Below the pieces are notes generated by a model. That model did no database searches, was not told the origin of the DNA, and saw only the letters and a program-made list of their open reading frames with translations. Below are positions 9,439-19,350 of a DNA stretch of 22,781 bases, piece by piece (the stretch's first letter is position 1; each line of letters opens with the position of its first letter). The DNA lies in the IMG/VR virus record IMGVR_UViG_3300030060_001304, positions 1 through 22,781 of that record. One strand, written 5' to 3'. This stretch comes from a virus. The position numbers and the translations under genes were made by a program.

Positions 9439-10108
9439 GATCATGTCTCCCAAATATTATAGGGTCTGACTCCACCGGTTCTGGAGGTTTTACATCAGAT
9501 TGCCTTGTTATCAAAATGTTTCCCTCTTGAATAGTCTGAACCAAAGGGTCTTCTAACCTATGGTATCCATACAGTTTTTCATTATCCGGAACATTTGTGT
9601 CAAGTAATCCCGAACGATGAGCTATTTCTAATTTTATGCCTTTTGACGCTGCGATAGCGCACCAAAACTCTACGCAAGCTCTGCCAGACTCCGCCATGTT
9701 TACGTTTTTATACGTAAAATCAATGCCGTATAAACATAGTTTTGTGGTTTTTTTCCATATAGCGTATGCAACGGCGTATGCAACAGTGTTGTTAAAATAA
9801 CAATATCCTGTCGATTTAACGACTTCTTCAAGTGGATATGGCTCTATTTTGGAGAACTTTTTGTTAGTTTGACAGGAATATATAGGTTTTTTGTTTTTTG
9901 ACAAAAACTCTCGTGCAATTCCCGTTTGAGATCCCGCGTTTTCTGTGTCTATAAAACGAGAGACCGGGTCCATCATAAACGTGCGATCAACGTGTATGAT
10001 AGCTCCAATACAATTTATGCCCCAAACTTCATCAAATGTTTGAGACGCAACTCTTGCAGCGATATAGTCAGCATAACTACCGCCCAAGCCAACAATGGCA
10101 ACTTTCAT
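9431..10108 (-). CDS. Rossmann-like phage protein, possible DUF115/sialyltransferase-like enzyme
   Basis: The protein has 225 residues. ATG 10108 overlaps the previous stop as ATGA. It starts with a beta strand and Gly-rich turn (MKVAIVGLGGSYADY), typical of a Rossmann nucleotide-binding fold. Then come DEVWGINCIG, DRTFMMDP, a FNNTVAYAVAYAIW helix and KLCLYGIDFTY, and then an AESGRACVEFW segment. This order (GxGxS start, a mid-protein N..AYA helix, LYGIDF, then an acidic-Cys helix) resembles DUF115/MptE-like proteins and bacterial sialyltransferase-like folds. The match is by pattern only. Similar proteins occur as single genes within the structural regions of many phages with no known role. 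The protein has no signal peptide, so it should act in the cytoplasm, on a nucleotide-linked substrate or on a virion protein. Confidence 0.7.
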   Translation of the reverse strand: MKVAIVGLGGSYADYIAARVASQTFDEVWGINCIGAIIHVDRTFMMDPVSRFIDTENAGSQTGIAREFLSKNKKPIYSCQTNKKFSKIEPYPLEEVVKSTGYCYFNNTVAYAVAYAIWKKTTKLCLYGIDFTYKNVNMAESGRACVEFWCAIAASKGIKLEIAHRSGLLDTNVPDNEKLYGYHRLEDPLVQTIQEGNILITRQSDVKPPEPVESDPIIFGRHDHV

Positions 10109-10959
10109 GTACGGGCCCTTCTTGGTAACCCCTGCCTGTTAGCATCATCGTTTTCACGGGCCTCACCAAGATCTTTTAGCCTAACTAAAGACTCAACAAA
10201 CCTCTCATTGTACATGCTCATTATGTCGGGTTCGCCTTTCATAAAGACATAAGCTTCAATGATACTTCCGTACAAAAGAGCGTTTGGTGCATTTTCACTT
10301 AACCAAGTCAATGTAGTGTCCGCAGAGGTAGACACAACAATTCCGGTGGCCCCACTTGTGCCCCCAGTAACTGTCTCTCCAACAGTAAAGTCCCCAGTAG
10401 GAAGAGTTATTACAAGCTCTGTAGCAGAGGTGAGAGAGTTTATTGTAGTGCTCTCTCCGCTTGTGCCTCCCGTTATCGTCTCACCTGAACTAAAAGTCCC
10501 TGTAACATTGCTTACCGTTAAGGTAACTTTGCTTTTTGTAAGACTAGTTGGTCTGTAATAATAATGAAGCTCTGTATCAAAATTTGCATTTGGCGTAGGT
10601 GATAATATAAAATTGTTTATATCATATATTGCATAGTATTTAGGAACCCCTGTGGTAGAAGGGTTTGGATTGTATTCTTGTATAAAATTTACATCTTTTT
10701 GTAACAAAAATTCTTTAGAACTTGAATTAGTTATGGAAATGCTAAAAGAAGCTAAATAATCATCAGGAACCGCTAAAAACTCGTTTCCAGATGTCATAGA
10801 CCCAGACACGTTTTTTCTAAAAAACTCAAAGTCCACGGATTTGAAAATGCGTTCTTCTGCTGACAGAATGAACCTATCTAAGTGGGAGACAAACACCGCT
10901 TCTTGGTTATCTGTATAATTTTTTACGGCTGTTTTTAACTGTGTGTATGTATAACTCAT
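10105..10959 (-). CDS. Head-tail adaptor protein, SU10-type
   Basis: The protein has 284 residues. ATG 10959 overlaps the previous stop as ATGA. The N-terminal region (YTQLKTAVKNYTDNQ then FILSAEERIFKSVDFEFFRK) and the segments FLAVPDDYLASFSI, YYAIYDINNFILSPTPN and LHYYYRPTSLT match what I know of phage head-tail adaptor proteins of the SU10 type. They attach below the portal. The C-terminal helical end includes LSENAPNALLYGSIIEAY and KGEPDIMSMYNERF, also typical. An insert at residues 144-215 carries two related units: FSSGETITGGTSGES and FTVGETVTGGTSGAT. Without the insert the protein would be near 210 residues, closer to the usual size. The assignment is fairly strong; the insert is discussed separately. 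Confidence 0.8.
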   Translation of the reverse strand: MSYTYTQLKTAVKNYTDNQEAVFVSHLDRFILSAEERIFKSVDFEFFRKNVSGSMTSGNEFLAVPDDYLASFSISITNSSSKEFLLQKDVNFIQEYNPNPSTTGVPKYYAIYDINNFILSPTPNANFDTELHYYYRPTSLTKSKVTLTVSNVTGTFSSGETITGGTSGESTTINSLTSATELVITLPTGDFTVGETVTGGTSGATGIVVSTSADTTLTWLSENAPNALLYGSIIEAYVFMKGEPDIMSMYNERFVESLVRLKDLGEARENDDANRQGLPRRART

Positions 10960-11696
10960 GGTGTATTCGCCTGTCCGCCCATACCACTATGGTTGGTGCA
11001 ATAGTAATATAGTGTTGGCGCTCCAACAGCAACTGCGATTTGTGTATACGCCCCAGAAGACCCCGGAGTGCCATTAGTGGTCACGCCCGTAGTGTATTCA
11101 GACCCTCCACCATGTGTTCCATTAGAAGTTGTTGAAAATCTAAGTGGATGACCTGAATTACTACTGTCGGACTGATCAAAACGATAAGTGCTTCCTTCAG
11201 ATAAATTGATAGTGGCCTGTTGTACTCCATCTATATAGTACTTGTTACCATAACCAGTGCTTGCAACAGTTACGGTAAAGGTTGCATTTACACCAGTGCC
11301 TGTTGCAGTAACGGTTACCGTGCCTGTAGCGCCAGTTCCGGAGACCCCTGTGGTGGCTGCATCGGTAGGCGTAACAACATCTCCACCAAAAGTAACCGTG
11401 CCTAGCTTTCCTTCTGCTTGTGGCACAAGTTCATACTGCAATGTTGTGGTATTAAAAATGGGAAAAGCTACAGTTACGTTTGTAGTTTCATTTTCTGGTC
11501 TATCTGGACGGGCATCTCGCAAAGTTTGAGGATCAAAAACCTTTCGGAAAGGGCCTAACTGTGGATGTTTTCTTTCAAACTCATCTTTTCCAACAAGTAG
11601 GCCATTCCACTCTTTACGCATGTCCTTATATCTATATCTAAGTCCAGAACGATCAGATATAGCGTAAGCGTATTTTCCTGTGGCATATCTAGGCAT
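10956..11696 (-). CDS. Neck/tail protein with C-terminal cupredoxin-like domain
   Basis: The protein has 246 residues. ATG 11696 overlaps the previous stop as TAATG. The N-terminal part (YAISDRSGLRYRYKDMRKEW, EFERKHPQLGPFRKVFDPQ) is conserved in marine phage connector-region proteins of unknown role. A Thr/Gly/Val-rich linker at 100-148 includes GVSGTGATGTVTV, like the repeats of the 180-residue protein downstream. The last 96 residues (151-246) look like a cupredoxin: an EGSTYRFDQS segment, GHPLRFS containing H183, and a final YYYCTNHSGMGG with C233, H236 and M239. This arrangement is that of a type-1 copper site, and the loop spacing C-x2-H-x2-M equals that of amicyanin. I infer copper binding; it is not shown. 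The domain is probably displayed on the neck or tail. Confidence 0.8.
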   Translation of the reverse strand: MPRYATGKYAYAISDRSGLRYRYKDMRKEWNGLLVGKDEFERKHPQLGPFRKVFDPQTLRDARPDRPENETTNVTVAFPIFNTTTLQYELVPQAEGKLGTVTFGGDVVTPTDAATTGVSGTGATGTVTVTATGTGVNATFTVTVASTGYGNKYYIDGVQQATINLSEGSTYRFDQSDSSNSGHPLRFSTTSNGTHGGGSEYTTGVTTNGTPGSSGAYTQIAVAVGAPTLYYYCTNHSGMGGQANTP

Positions 11697-12364
11697 TAGT
11701 TTGTCCTGAAATAGGCATACTCTGGTGTAACCGTGAAGCTAGAACGATCTCTATCTTCACCCATAGCTCTTTCAAACTCTTCTTCATACATAGCTTTTAA
11801 CATTTGAGTGCGATTAGGAGCCCGTTTAATTGACAGGTAATAAGCCAAACCAGCAGCTAAACAAGGATAGAACCTAAAAGGGACATCTAAGGTGTTTATG
11901 GCGGTGTCTGCATCGTCTATACGTGTCAAAGCGTTATAAACAACTACATCCGTGCTATTTTCTGGGGTTGGCCATAAGCGCAGGCTTGGTGTCACTTGTC
12001 TGTCTAAGAAAAACTGAGTGGGCCTGCCTGTAGTGGTCTTATTAGGAATGTTTAAGTCGTCATCTCTACTCACACGAGTTAGAGCAAAATCAGTGCTACT
12101 GCGAGTTACAACAGCACTCAGCACATCAATCACATCCGCAGATAAGGCATATGTCCTTGTTCCTGATGTAAGAGCCTGAGTTCTCTGCGTGATGGTCCAT
12201 TGGTTTAAGCCACGATTGGCCCATTCTGCCAGCATTATGTTTAAAGACCGTCGGGCCGTAACCAGATCGTAACCGGTCCTCACTTCTAAGCCACAACGCT
12301 CAAACGCCTCTTCTACATAATCTGCTACGTTTAGTTCAAAATCAACGCTTCCTGAAACAGCCAT
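11696..12364 (-). CDS. Tail accessory/connector factor, P22 gp4-like
   Basis: The protein has 222 residues. ATG 12364 overlaps the previous stop as TAATG. The opening (VADYVEEAFERCGLEVRTG then DLVTARRSLNIMLAEWANRG) and the following QWTITQRTQALTSGTRTYAL, DFALTRVSRDDD, and the FYPCLAAGLAYYLSIKRAP segment resemble the family of podovirus proteins related to P22 gp4. These join the portal to the tail hub. P22 gp4 is about 166 residues and this one is longer. The place before a neck protein and the adaptor supports a connector role. The specific family name is from memory of the conserved segments. Confidence 0.65.
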   Translation of the reverse strand: MAVSGSVDFELNVADYVEEAFERCGLEVRTGYDLVTARRSLNIMLAEWANRGLNQWTITQRTQALTSGTRTYALSADVIDVLSAVVTRSSTDFALTRVSRDDDLNIPNKTTTGRPTQFFLDRQVTPSLRLWPTPENSTDVVVYNALTRIDDADTAINTLDVPFRFYPCLAAGLAYYLSIKRAPNRTQMLKAMYEEEFERAMGEDRDRSSFTVTPEYAYFRTN

Positions 12365-13041
12365 TACTTTTCTTTCGCGTACAAGTTATCAAATATTTGA
12401 TTTACGTCCATTGTATAGTCTAAATCTGATTTTGAATAGTGTATATGCTGAGAGGGTAAGAAATCAGGCGCACCCTGTCCTGTTTCAAACCAAGCAGGAT
12501 GTGTGACCCGGACACGATTATTAGGCAGAGCAACGATGTTACCCGTGTATGGACCGGCATCCAAAAGCTCTAAAACGTGGCTCTGTTTATGCTGCGCTGG
12601 GTCATCAGCAATCTCGCTCTCCGTATAATCTACCGTAAAATAGTATTTAGCCGGATAAAACTCAGGCCCTATTTTGGCGATCCAAGGGCACGGATGAGCG
12701 CGATCTAAACGATAAACTGCGTGTGTATGGGACATACAGTCCCAAGGTTGCGCCAAATGGACAGGCATAGGTTCTGGCCACTCTTCAAAAGGCGTATCTC
12801 CAACAAGCGCAGTTATGGGCATTCTGGCCCACATCGCTCCCCCATGTACGTTCTGCTGATCCGTGCCATCGGTCTCACAGCCGGTGAATATCATCTGAAA
12901 ACTTAAACACCGGCTGGGCATCGTAGTAACCGCAATCGCCATAGCGTGAAGAAACTCGCCATGATAATTAGAGTGGTTACACGTATATTCTCTCCGCACC
13001 CAACACTTGAAGTGCGGAATATTACTTTGAAGGTAAGGCAA
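12364..13041 (-). CDS. Cys/His-rich phage protein, unknown function
   Basis: The protein has 225 residues and starts at TTG 13041, four bases after the preceding stop. An AAGG lies about 11 bases upstream. I chose this start because the N-terminal segment MPYLQSNIPHFKCWVRREY looks like the conserved opening of such proteins in marine phages. The next in-frame ATG would remove 33 residues. It has six Cys (13, 21, 45, 55, 102, 118) and about 15 His, with an early C-x7-C-x-H-x3-H pattern (residues 13-27) that could bind a metal. It has no membrane segment. It lies between the basic-protein cassette and the connector genes, so a head-closure or neck role is possible. No function is known to me. 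Confidence 0.7.
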   Translation of the reverse strand: MPYLQSNIPHFKCWVRREYTCNHSNYHGEFLHAMAIAVTTMPSRCLSFQMIFTGCETDGTDQQNVHGGAMWARMPITALVGDTPFEEWPEPMPVHLAQPWDCMSHTHAVYRLDRAHPCPWIAKIGPEFYPAKYYFTVDYTESEIADDPAQHKQSHVLELLDAGPYTGNIVALPNNRVRVTHPAWFETGQGAPDFLPSQHIHYSKSDLDYTMDVNQIFDNLYAKEK

Positions 13042-13045
13042 AGTC

Positions 13046-13330
13046 TTATACCTTGCCGCCCTTGGCCATGCCTTTTTTCTTCATCATGCCGCCGTTGGCC
13101 ATCTTCTGGACTTTACCGCCTTTGGCCATGCCTTTTTTCTTCATCATGCCGCCGTTGGCCATCTTCTGAACTTTACCGCCTTTGGCATAACCCTTCTTCT
13201 TCATGGCTCCACCGCCAGCCATCTTCTGGACTTTACCGCCTTTAGCCATGCCTTTTTTCTTCATGGTAGGTGCTACGTTACCTACAAGGCTAGATGAATA
13301 TTCATCCATTGTCATAAATTCTTTTGCCAT
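13046..13330 (-). CDS. Basic repeat protein with 20-residue tandem repeats
   Basis: The protein has 94 residues, with a GGAGCGG ribosome site 4-10 bases ahead of ATG 13330. The first 22 residues (MAKEFMTMDEYSSSLVGNVA) are acidic or neutral. From residue 23 to the end there are three full and one partial copy of a 20-residue unit, roughly MKKKGMAKGGKVQKMANGGM. The repeat is very basic, rich in Lys, Gly and Met. The DNA repeats every 60 bases almost perfectly (see the repeat feature). Similar GGKVKKM-type units occur in other marine phages. The composition suggests contact with DNA or negatively charged surfaces. There is no membrane segment, since the repeat is too polar. Function is unknown. 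Confidence 0.7.
   Translation of the reverse strand: MAKEFMTMDEYSSSLVGNVAPTMKKKGMAKGGKVQKMAGGGAMKKKGYAKGGKVQKMANGGMMKKKGMAKGGKVQKMANGGMMKKKGMAKGGKV
13049..13264 (-). repeat. 60-bp tandem repeats in basic protein gene
   Basis: Three full copies and one partial copy of a 60-bp unit lie head to tail and encode the 20-residue unit MKKKGMAKGGKVQKMANGGM. The unit keeps the phase exactly, and two neighbouring copies differ by only a few bases. The perfect length and near-identity suggest recent duplication by slippage or recombination. Copy number may vary between related phages. Confidence 0.85.
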
Positions 13331-18912: not shown

Positions 18913-19350
18913 CTAGAAATGAAGAATATCTTCGGGTTCTTTTATTTTTGCCAGTATCTCATCATCATTGAGAATACGAACCTCCCCACCGTCTATCTTG
19001 AACCGTGAGCCTGAATAACGAGCGAACATCACCCAATCACCCTGTTCACACCAAGATCCTGTGGGAAACTTTTCTGCGTCCTTATAGGCCAAAGATCCTA
19101 CCTTTAGGACGTAACCTACCTGTGTAGATACGGTTTGTTCTTGAACAACCGTGTCAGGAAGATAAATGCCACCATCTGTTTTGCCTTTACCCCTGTAAGG
19201 TAAAACCAAAATACGCCATCCTGTTGGATCTGGCATTCTTTCTAGGAGAGAACCCCCAATAGCTTCGGGGTCTAATACTCTATCGCTTGGCTCTTTGTAA
19301 GCCTCTGATAGATTTGCCACACCTTCAGATGCAGCTTCTAAGTCAATCAT
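18913..19350 (-). CDS. Phage GroES-type co-chaperonin
   Basis: The protein has 145 residues and overlaps the previous gene by 8 bases. The domain at residues 42-137 matches the Cpn10 pattern: GWRILVLPYRGKGKTDGGIY, VVQEQTVSTQVGYVLKVGS, then GDWVMFARYSGSRFKIDGGE and VRILNDDEILAKI. Residues 60-64 (GGIYL) match the hydrophobic mobile-loop tripeptide by which GroES binds GroEL. There is an N-terminal extension of about 42 residues with many acidic positions, not found in bacterial GroES (97 residues). Like T4 gp31, it should act with host GroEL, presumably to fold a large phage protein such as the capsid. No GroEL is seen here. The role is strongly supported. Confidence 0.9.
   Translation of the reverse strand: MIDLEAASEGVANLSEAYKEPSDRVLDPEAIGGSLLERMPDPTGWRILVLPYRGKGKTDGGIYLPDTVVQEQTVSTQVGYVLKVGSLAYKDAEKFPTGSWCEQGDWVMFARYSGSRFKIDGGEVRILNDDEILAKIKEPEDILHF

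Follow-up and report, generated by a model that had tools for sequence, protein, structure and literature searches.

We analysed a window comprising a whole IMG/VR virus record of 22,781 bp, and the best explanation for the last 96 residues of one of its connector-region proteins is a cupredoxin-like domain that has all four ligands of a type-1-like copper site and would serve as a mobile, virion-displayed connector module that is loaded with copper outside the host cytoplasm (probability roughly 0.6 for this reading as a whole). The cupredoxin-like nature of the fold and ligand set is very likely, copper binding by the domain is probable judging from its residues, and any given function can be proposed only tentatively.

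On its minus strand the window encodes a marine podovirus-like structural cluster, which includes a capsid protein, a GroES-like protein, a lysozyme and two SU10-adaptor-like connector proteins. The protein of interest is the product of a 246-residue ORF that is flanked on both sides by the SU10-adaptor-like ORFs, and the order of adaptor-like protein, N-terminal module and adaptor-like protein is kept in related contigs. Gene order thus assigns it to the head-tail connector part of the structural module, in agreement with the first-pass annotation, which had described a connector-type N-terminus. Its Gly/Thr-rich linker had a sub-threshold match to Big_3 as its sole Pfam hit, and inspection by eye revealed no signal peptide at its N-terminus, MPRYATGKYAYAISDRSG. 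The features are as follows, with conservation given for viral copies at 80% non-redundancy:

11696..12364, minus strand: SU10_adaptor-like protein of the head-tail connector family, upstream neighbour (Pfam PF24175, E 6e-17)
10956..11696, minus strand: 246-residue ORF with ATG start, encoding an N-terminal connector-region module, a linker and a C-terminal cupredoxin-like domain
11412..11696, minus strand: residues 1-95, putative connector-region module (PHROG 28581-like, E 4e-20)
11247..11411, minus strand: residues 96-150, Gly/Thr-rich linker, delineated from the sequence
10956..11246, minus strand: residues 151-246, cupredoxin-like domain of 96 residues (AlphaFold2 model; profile matches to plastocyanin, amicyanin and nitrite reductase; hhalign)
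11148..11150, minus strand: predicted copper ligand His183, in the motif GHPLRFS (97% conserved)
10998..11000, minus strand: predicted copper ligand Cys233, at a strand end in the AlphaFold2 model (97% conserved)
10989..10991, minus strand: predicted copper ligand His236 (95.5% conserved)
10980..10982, minus strand: predicted axial copper ligand Met239 (98.5% conserved)
10105..10959, minus strand: second SU10_adaptor-like protein, downstream neighbour (Pfam PF24175, E 2e-20)

Several other elements of this region deserve mention in their own right. The downstream adaptor-like protein (10105-10959, minus strand) contains a Gly/Thr-rich insertion at residues ~145-212 that matches other phage proteins belonging to head closure and tail fibre PHROGs, and a GroES/Cpn10-like co-chaperonin is encoded within the structural cluster at 18913-19350 on the minus strand (Pfam E 7e-13). 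Adjoining the connector genes is an ORF (12364-13041, minus strand) that matches PHROG 3704, a group called 'ferredoxin' (E 2e-27), with no match in Pfam; of 80 related contigs, 16 have an ORF of this type near the cupredoxin-like domain. A 94-residue ORF includes a 60-bp tandem repeat in 3.5 copies at 13056-13264, which encodes Lys/Gly-rich KKKGMAKGGKVQKMANGGM repeats.

Conservation of the ligand set

The window domain displays the ligand order His...Cys-x(n)-His-x(n)-Met that is seen in type-1 copper sites. The first-pass annotation had singled out these 96 residues, with H183, C233, H236 and M239, and its sequence, coordinates and residue assignments proved accurate, as did the amicyanin-like Cys-x2-His-x2-Met spacing and the Thr after the Cys to which it drew attention. 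It had staked this reading on the joint retention of the four ligands in homologues, and this is what we observed: among viral copies of the domain in which none of the four ligand positions is a gap, the H/C/H/M set is complete in 308 of 312, and in 63 of 66 when the copies are reduced to 80% non-redundancy. The six most conserved columns (in domain numbering) are M89, Y81, C83, H33, G18 and H86. The codons of the ligands vary synonymously with the residues fixed, both for the Cys (TGT 188, TGC 123) and for the two His (CAT/CAC 176/138 and 215/95). Most of the several peptide patterns with which the viral contigs were queried included no ligand position, and the ascertainment bias in these counts is accordingly modest; the scan of bacterial genomes was conditioned on the Cys and His, and its hits are excluded from the counts. 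The H/C/H/M set of the window domain is not a product of chance, and its strict conservation disfavors the suggestion, also made in the first-pass annotation, of a decayed fold with unused ligands.

The four exceptions are a D/C/H/L copy (L017), an H/C/N/M copy (L114), a D/R/T/I copy (L122) and a D/A/T/M copy in cyanophage PSS2. They are mostly joint losses (permutation P 0.03, a value that is based on few events and ignores relatedness). Outside the 312, three truncated or divergent copies (L092, L101 and L126) are also devoid of the ligand Cys, and in several baseplate-region proteins of cyanophages the second copy is alignable in its first half only. The PSS2 copy (gp080; L090, 4001-4321) is a single-domain protein of 112 residues annotated as a baseplate wedge subunit, in which three of the four ligands have been lost.

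That copies so highly divergent keep all four ligands is an argument that most of them would bind a metal. His2-Cys-Met is the canonical copper set, as in known cupredoxins, and copper is for this reason the metal that we infer.

Relationship to established cupredoxins

Searches of the PDB with profiles of the family ranked copper proteins above all others. A profile of 17 family sequences had copper nitrite reductase, pseudoazurin and plastocyanin as its top matches, and one of 56 sequences gave stronger matches to nitrite reductase (E 2e-6) and plastocyanin (3e-4), with some antibody chains lower down. A further profile (A5), which includes short-loop phage relatives together with the window domain, gave 57 matches at E<=0.01, all of them cupredoxin-fold copper proteins (best E 2.7e-7), which span plastocyanins, amicyanins, rusticyanins, nitrite reductases, auracyanins and the copper domain of cytochrome oxidase. 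In hhalign comparisons with marine bacterial cupredoxins of the plastocyanin/pseudoazurin type, a family profile (A4) attained a probability of 95.8% and a score of 50.1, against a score of at most 17.2 in 100 column-shuffled controls, and the close window-like subfamily by itself attained 82% and a score of 34.5 (shuffled controls at most 15.9). With the Cys-His-Met loop removed, the probability was 52% for A4, 1.4% for the close subfamily, and 67% in the comparison with the short-loop relatives; the direct cupredoxin signal of the close subfamily thus rests on this loop, since its removal drops the signal to noise. The short-loop phage domains provide a bridge, being matched by the window-like domains at 97.7% and in turn matching the plastocyanin-type proteins at 97.1%. 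Azurin-type bacterial proteins gave no match in hhalign (1.4%). Homology of the family to established cupredoxins is therefore detectable both in PDB profile searches and in hhalign against shuffled controls, with that of the close subfamily being loop-dependent.

The Pfam model PF00127 (Copper-bind, plastocyanin/azurin) was matched by 10 of 51 family members. The window domain itself did not match PF00127 even at E <= 10, nor did it match any cupredoxin model in Pfam, and a sub-threshold Pfam match to CBM_4_9 was taken as chance. When it was queried against the PDB with phmmer, it recovered antibody matches alone, with E 0.7 or worse.

AlphaFold2 predicted a confident beta-sandwich for the window domain (101-residue model from 51 sequences, pLDDT 90.5), with the Cys at the end of the strand 84-88, the His and Met in the loop that follows, and the last strand at 95-99, a layout of strands and loop that, in the model, is as expected of a cupredoxin. 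Foldseek searches of the PDB with this model placed no cupredoxin in the top 50, with weak Ig folds coming first (E >= 0.014, TM < 0.5); given these TM values and the dominance of antibodies in the PDB library, we rejected these matches as proof of an Ig fold. The model of a short-loop phage relative (L115; pLDDT 91.3) had amicyanin as its top match (E 2.4e-4, 28% identity), and nearly all of the matches below it were cupredoxins, plastocyanin included. Of the reading put forward in the first-pass annotation, the beta-sandwich and the remote homology to plastocyanin and amicyanin are supported, whereas an amicyanin-type fold match was obtained for the short-loop relative and not for the window model.

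The window domain shares with amicyanin and plastocyanin (PF00127) the four ligands and their order, the predicted strand order and position of the ligand loop, and remote sequence homology, and its Cys-x2-His-x2-Met spacing is identical to that of amicyanin. It differs from them in the long Gly/Thr-rich stretch between the first His and the Cys, which lie 50 residues apart, in the absence of a Pro from the C-x-x-H loop, and in having HP instead of HN at the first His. An Asn is usual at this position in plastocyanin and amicyanin, where it forms a second-sphere hydrogen bond; Pro occurs in its place in the window domain and in 91% of the viral copies at 80% non-redundancy. Furthermore, amicyanin and plastocyanin are exported periplasmic or lumenal electron carriers, whereas the window protein is a phage structural protein without an export signal, encoded in a structural gene cluster. 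A ligand loop of the Y-x-C-x2-H-x2-M-x-G type is shared with Cupredoxin_1 (PF13473) and the C-terminal domains of multicopper oxidases and NirK, as illustrated by YICSIHPYMKG and YICTLHPWMKG in the PDB matches 6hbe and 9cck. Those proteins are periplasmic or extracellular enzymes, in contrast to the phage case, where one such domain is attached to a protein of the virion. We also considered whether the domain could be a host plastocyanin acquired as a metabolic gene and rejected this, as it has no signal peptide, is embedded in structural proteins and has a different ligand-loop sequence. Since the window copy lacks the tested features of PF00127, plastocyanin and amicyanin, namely the cut-off score, the Asn and the export, we do not file it under any of these and regard it as a new cupredoxin-like subfamily of type-1-like character. 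Our searches of the open literature, as distinct from subscription papers and automated database annotations, found no paper on a cupredoxin domain in a phage particle.

A mobile module in phages and bacteria

The first-pass annotation treated the domain as part of a single protein; it is instead a widespread mobile domain. A scan of viral contigs showed that at least 595 of them encode relatives of the window domain, and 100 of 50,697 phage records match it, these being named as Synechococcus, Prochlorococcus, cyano-, Pelagibacter or Methylophilales phages or as marine or uncultured viruses. Isolates with the domain include S-TIM5, Pelagibacter phage HTVC028P and Methylophilales phage Melnitz. 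A scan of plasmids recovered no copy. The domain-bearing phage proteins are annotated as tail fibre, baseplate wedge, virion structural protein or hypothetical, and the domain occurs in them as a single C-terminal or N-terminal unit, as an internal insertion or in tandem arrays. Proteins of PHROGs 30742, 693, 677 and 708 (tail fibre, baseplate wedge, connector) contain it, and the annotation tables for these groups give tail structural terms only, with no copper or cupredoxin label. The present analysis names a domain hidden under many 'tail fibre' and 'hypothetical' annotations.

The N-terminal module of the 246-residue ORF occurs with the domain in 52 of 70 ORFs and without it in 18. In related contigs where this module is without the domain, a later ORF carries it; all these contigs were found through the domain, and a rule of one per genome can therefore not be drawn from them. 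In one contig (L074) the ORF equivalent to the downstream adaptor-like protein itself contains a copy. The presence or absence of the domain on the same connector protein within one lineage, and its recurrence elsewhere in tail-fibre and baseplate proteins, establish it as a mobile module. Several cupredoxin-like domains occur in a row in phage proteins (L114, L115 and L116) related to a large structural protein of P-HM2/MED4-213; in L114 (ORF frame 1, residues 617-1038) three tandem domains are H/C/H/M and one is H/C/N/M. Because of these tandem domains, some virions could hold many sites.

Outside phages, a predicted lipoprotein of SAR86 (L308, 4717-6264) and another of Woeseiaceae (L314, 4402-6267) have the domain at their C-terminus; both begin with lipoprotein-type signals (...SACGGGGG) and lie on chromosomal contigs with housekeeping genes. 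A further chromosomal SAR86 protein (L306, 5299-6264) ends in it as well, and on account of these three proteins the module can be considered common to marine bacteria and phages. The Woeseiaceae domains are 53% (L314) and 49% (L318) identical to the search query in tblastn, and the proteins that carry them score 24.0 and 24.5 bits, respectively, against PF00127, which exceeds its cut-off of 21.2 bits. At least one match in a Pelagibacter genome (L304) adjoins tail-fibre-like and terminase-like genes, and this copy looks viral.

Metal, function and alternative readings

Judged from the ligands, these observations suggest that marine virus particles may carry copper. As the protein is without an export signal, we propose that the apo-protein would be made and folded in the host cytoplasm, where free copper is scarce, and that Cu(I/II) would be taken up after assembly, either in seawater when the cell lyses or in the periplasm of a new host during entry. 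Copper binding would then hold the ligand loop of this exposed domain in place, and the domain so loaded would most likely act in surface contact or particle stability and not as an enzyme. Structural stabilization and host contact are the leading functional candidates, and electron transfer is without support. Weighing against the cupredoxin reading are the cytoplasmic synthesis, which would be odd for a copper protein, the Ig-first Foldseek result of the window model, the loop dependence of the direct signal, the lack of a Pfam cupredoxin match and the HP in place of HN.

The alternative that survives best, though at well below even odds, is a structural metal site, in which the domain is one of the accessory beta-sandwiches found on phage structural proteins, and its exposed fold is merely stabilized by copper or another soft metal such as zinc, with no copper chemistry or recognition. 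The insertion of the domain at the termini of and inside many unrelated virion proteins accords with it, as do the Ig-like folds nearest to the window model and the persistence of the domain after joint ligand loss in PSS2 gp080 (D,A,T,M) and L122 (D,R,T,I). However, ligands are very seldom lost (4 of 312 copies), where a dispensable stabilizer would be expected to lose them more often, and the His2-Cys-Met set points to copper. Ig-like accessory domains of tailed phages are likewise mobile beta-sandwich modules on virion proteins; we know of no conserved metal-ligand set in them.

Another reading is that virion-bound copper, or the cupredoxin surface itself, might be recognized by copper-uptake or periplasmic redox proteins of the host, in the manner of a Trojan horse. 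This reading, which is built on analogy, seems unlikely. In its favor, cyanophages, pelagiphages and a Methylophilales phage have copies in tail-fibre, baseplate and connector proteins, and the same domain occurs on predicted surface lipoproteins of marine bacteria, but there is no known receptor, and the window copy resides on a connector-region protein and not on a recognized receptor-binding tip. Metal in marine phage tails is the nearest published concept: phage tail fibres with HxH motifs that bind iron have been described, as has the Trojan- or Ferrojan-horse hypothesis (PMC11705849). These resemble the present case in placing a metal (copper here being predicted) on marine phage tails with a possible tie to host nutrient uptake, and differ from it in fold and ligands, with iron in place of a type-1-like copper site. 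A broader proposal, which we regard as doubtful though somewhat less so, is that marine tailed phages of cyanobacteria, SAR11, Methylophilales and unknown hosts have copper in their particles, bound by a dedicated cupredoxin domain that comes into play when the host is contacted; this would be a copper counterpart of the Ferrojan horse and an organic copper ligand of seawater that has been overlooked. Were copper bound, many marine phages would have a defined metal site on the virion, with a bearing on attachment, particle survival and copper complexation in surface seawater. The question of whether marine virions carry copper becomes directly testable, as each residue of the site is predicted and there are isolates that have the domain.

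The usual role of type-1 copper sites is electron transfer. A redox role, with Cu(I)/Cu(II) cycling to pass electrons or to detoxify copper or reactive oxygen during host entry or while the particle is in sunlit seawater, could be read from the complete type-1 ligand set; we identified no redox partner or docking patch, and the tandem copies in large fibres (L114) look structural, unlike a soluble carrier, which makes such a role improbable. Equally improbable is that no metal is bound and the His/Cys/His/Met set is a packing signature of an Ig-like domain with a convergent resemblance to cupredoxins, as the Ig folds retrieved with the window model and the loss of the direct profile signal on masking the loop might imply, because this is countered by the short-loop bridge, the match of the short-loop model to amicyanin, the bacterial homologues that exceed the PF00127 cut-off, and the invariance across very divergent copies of a lone Cys, two His and a Met, which is hard to explain by packing.
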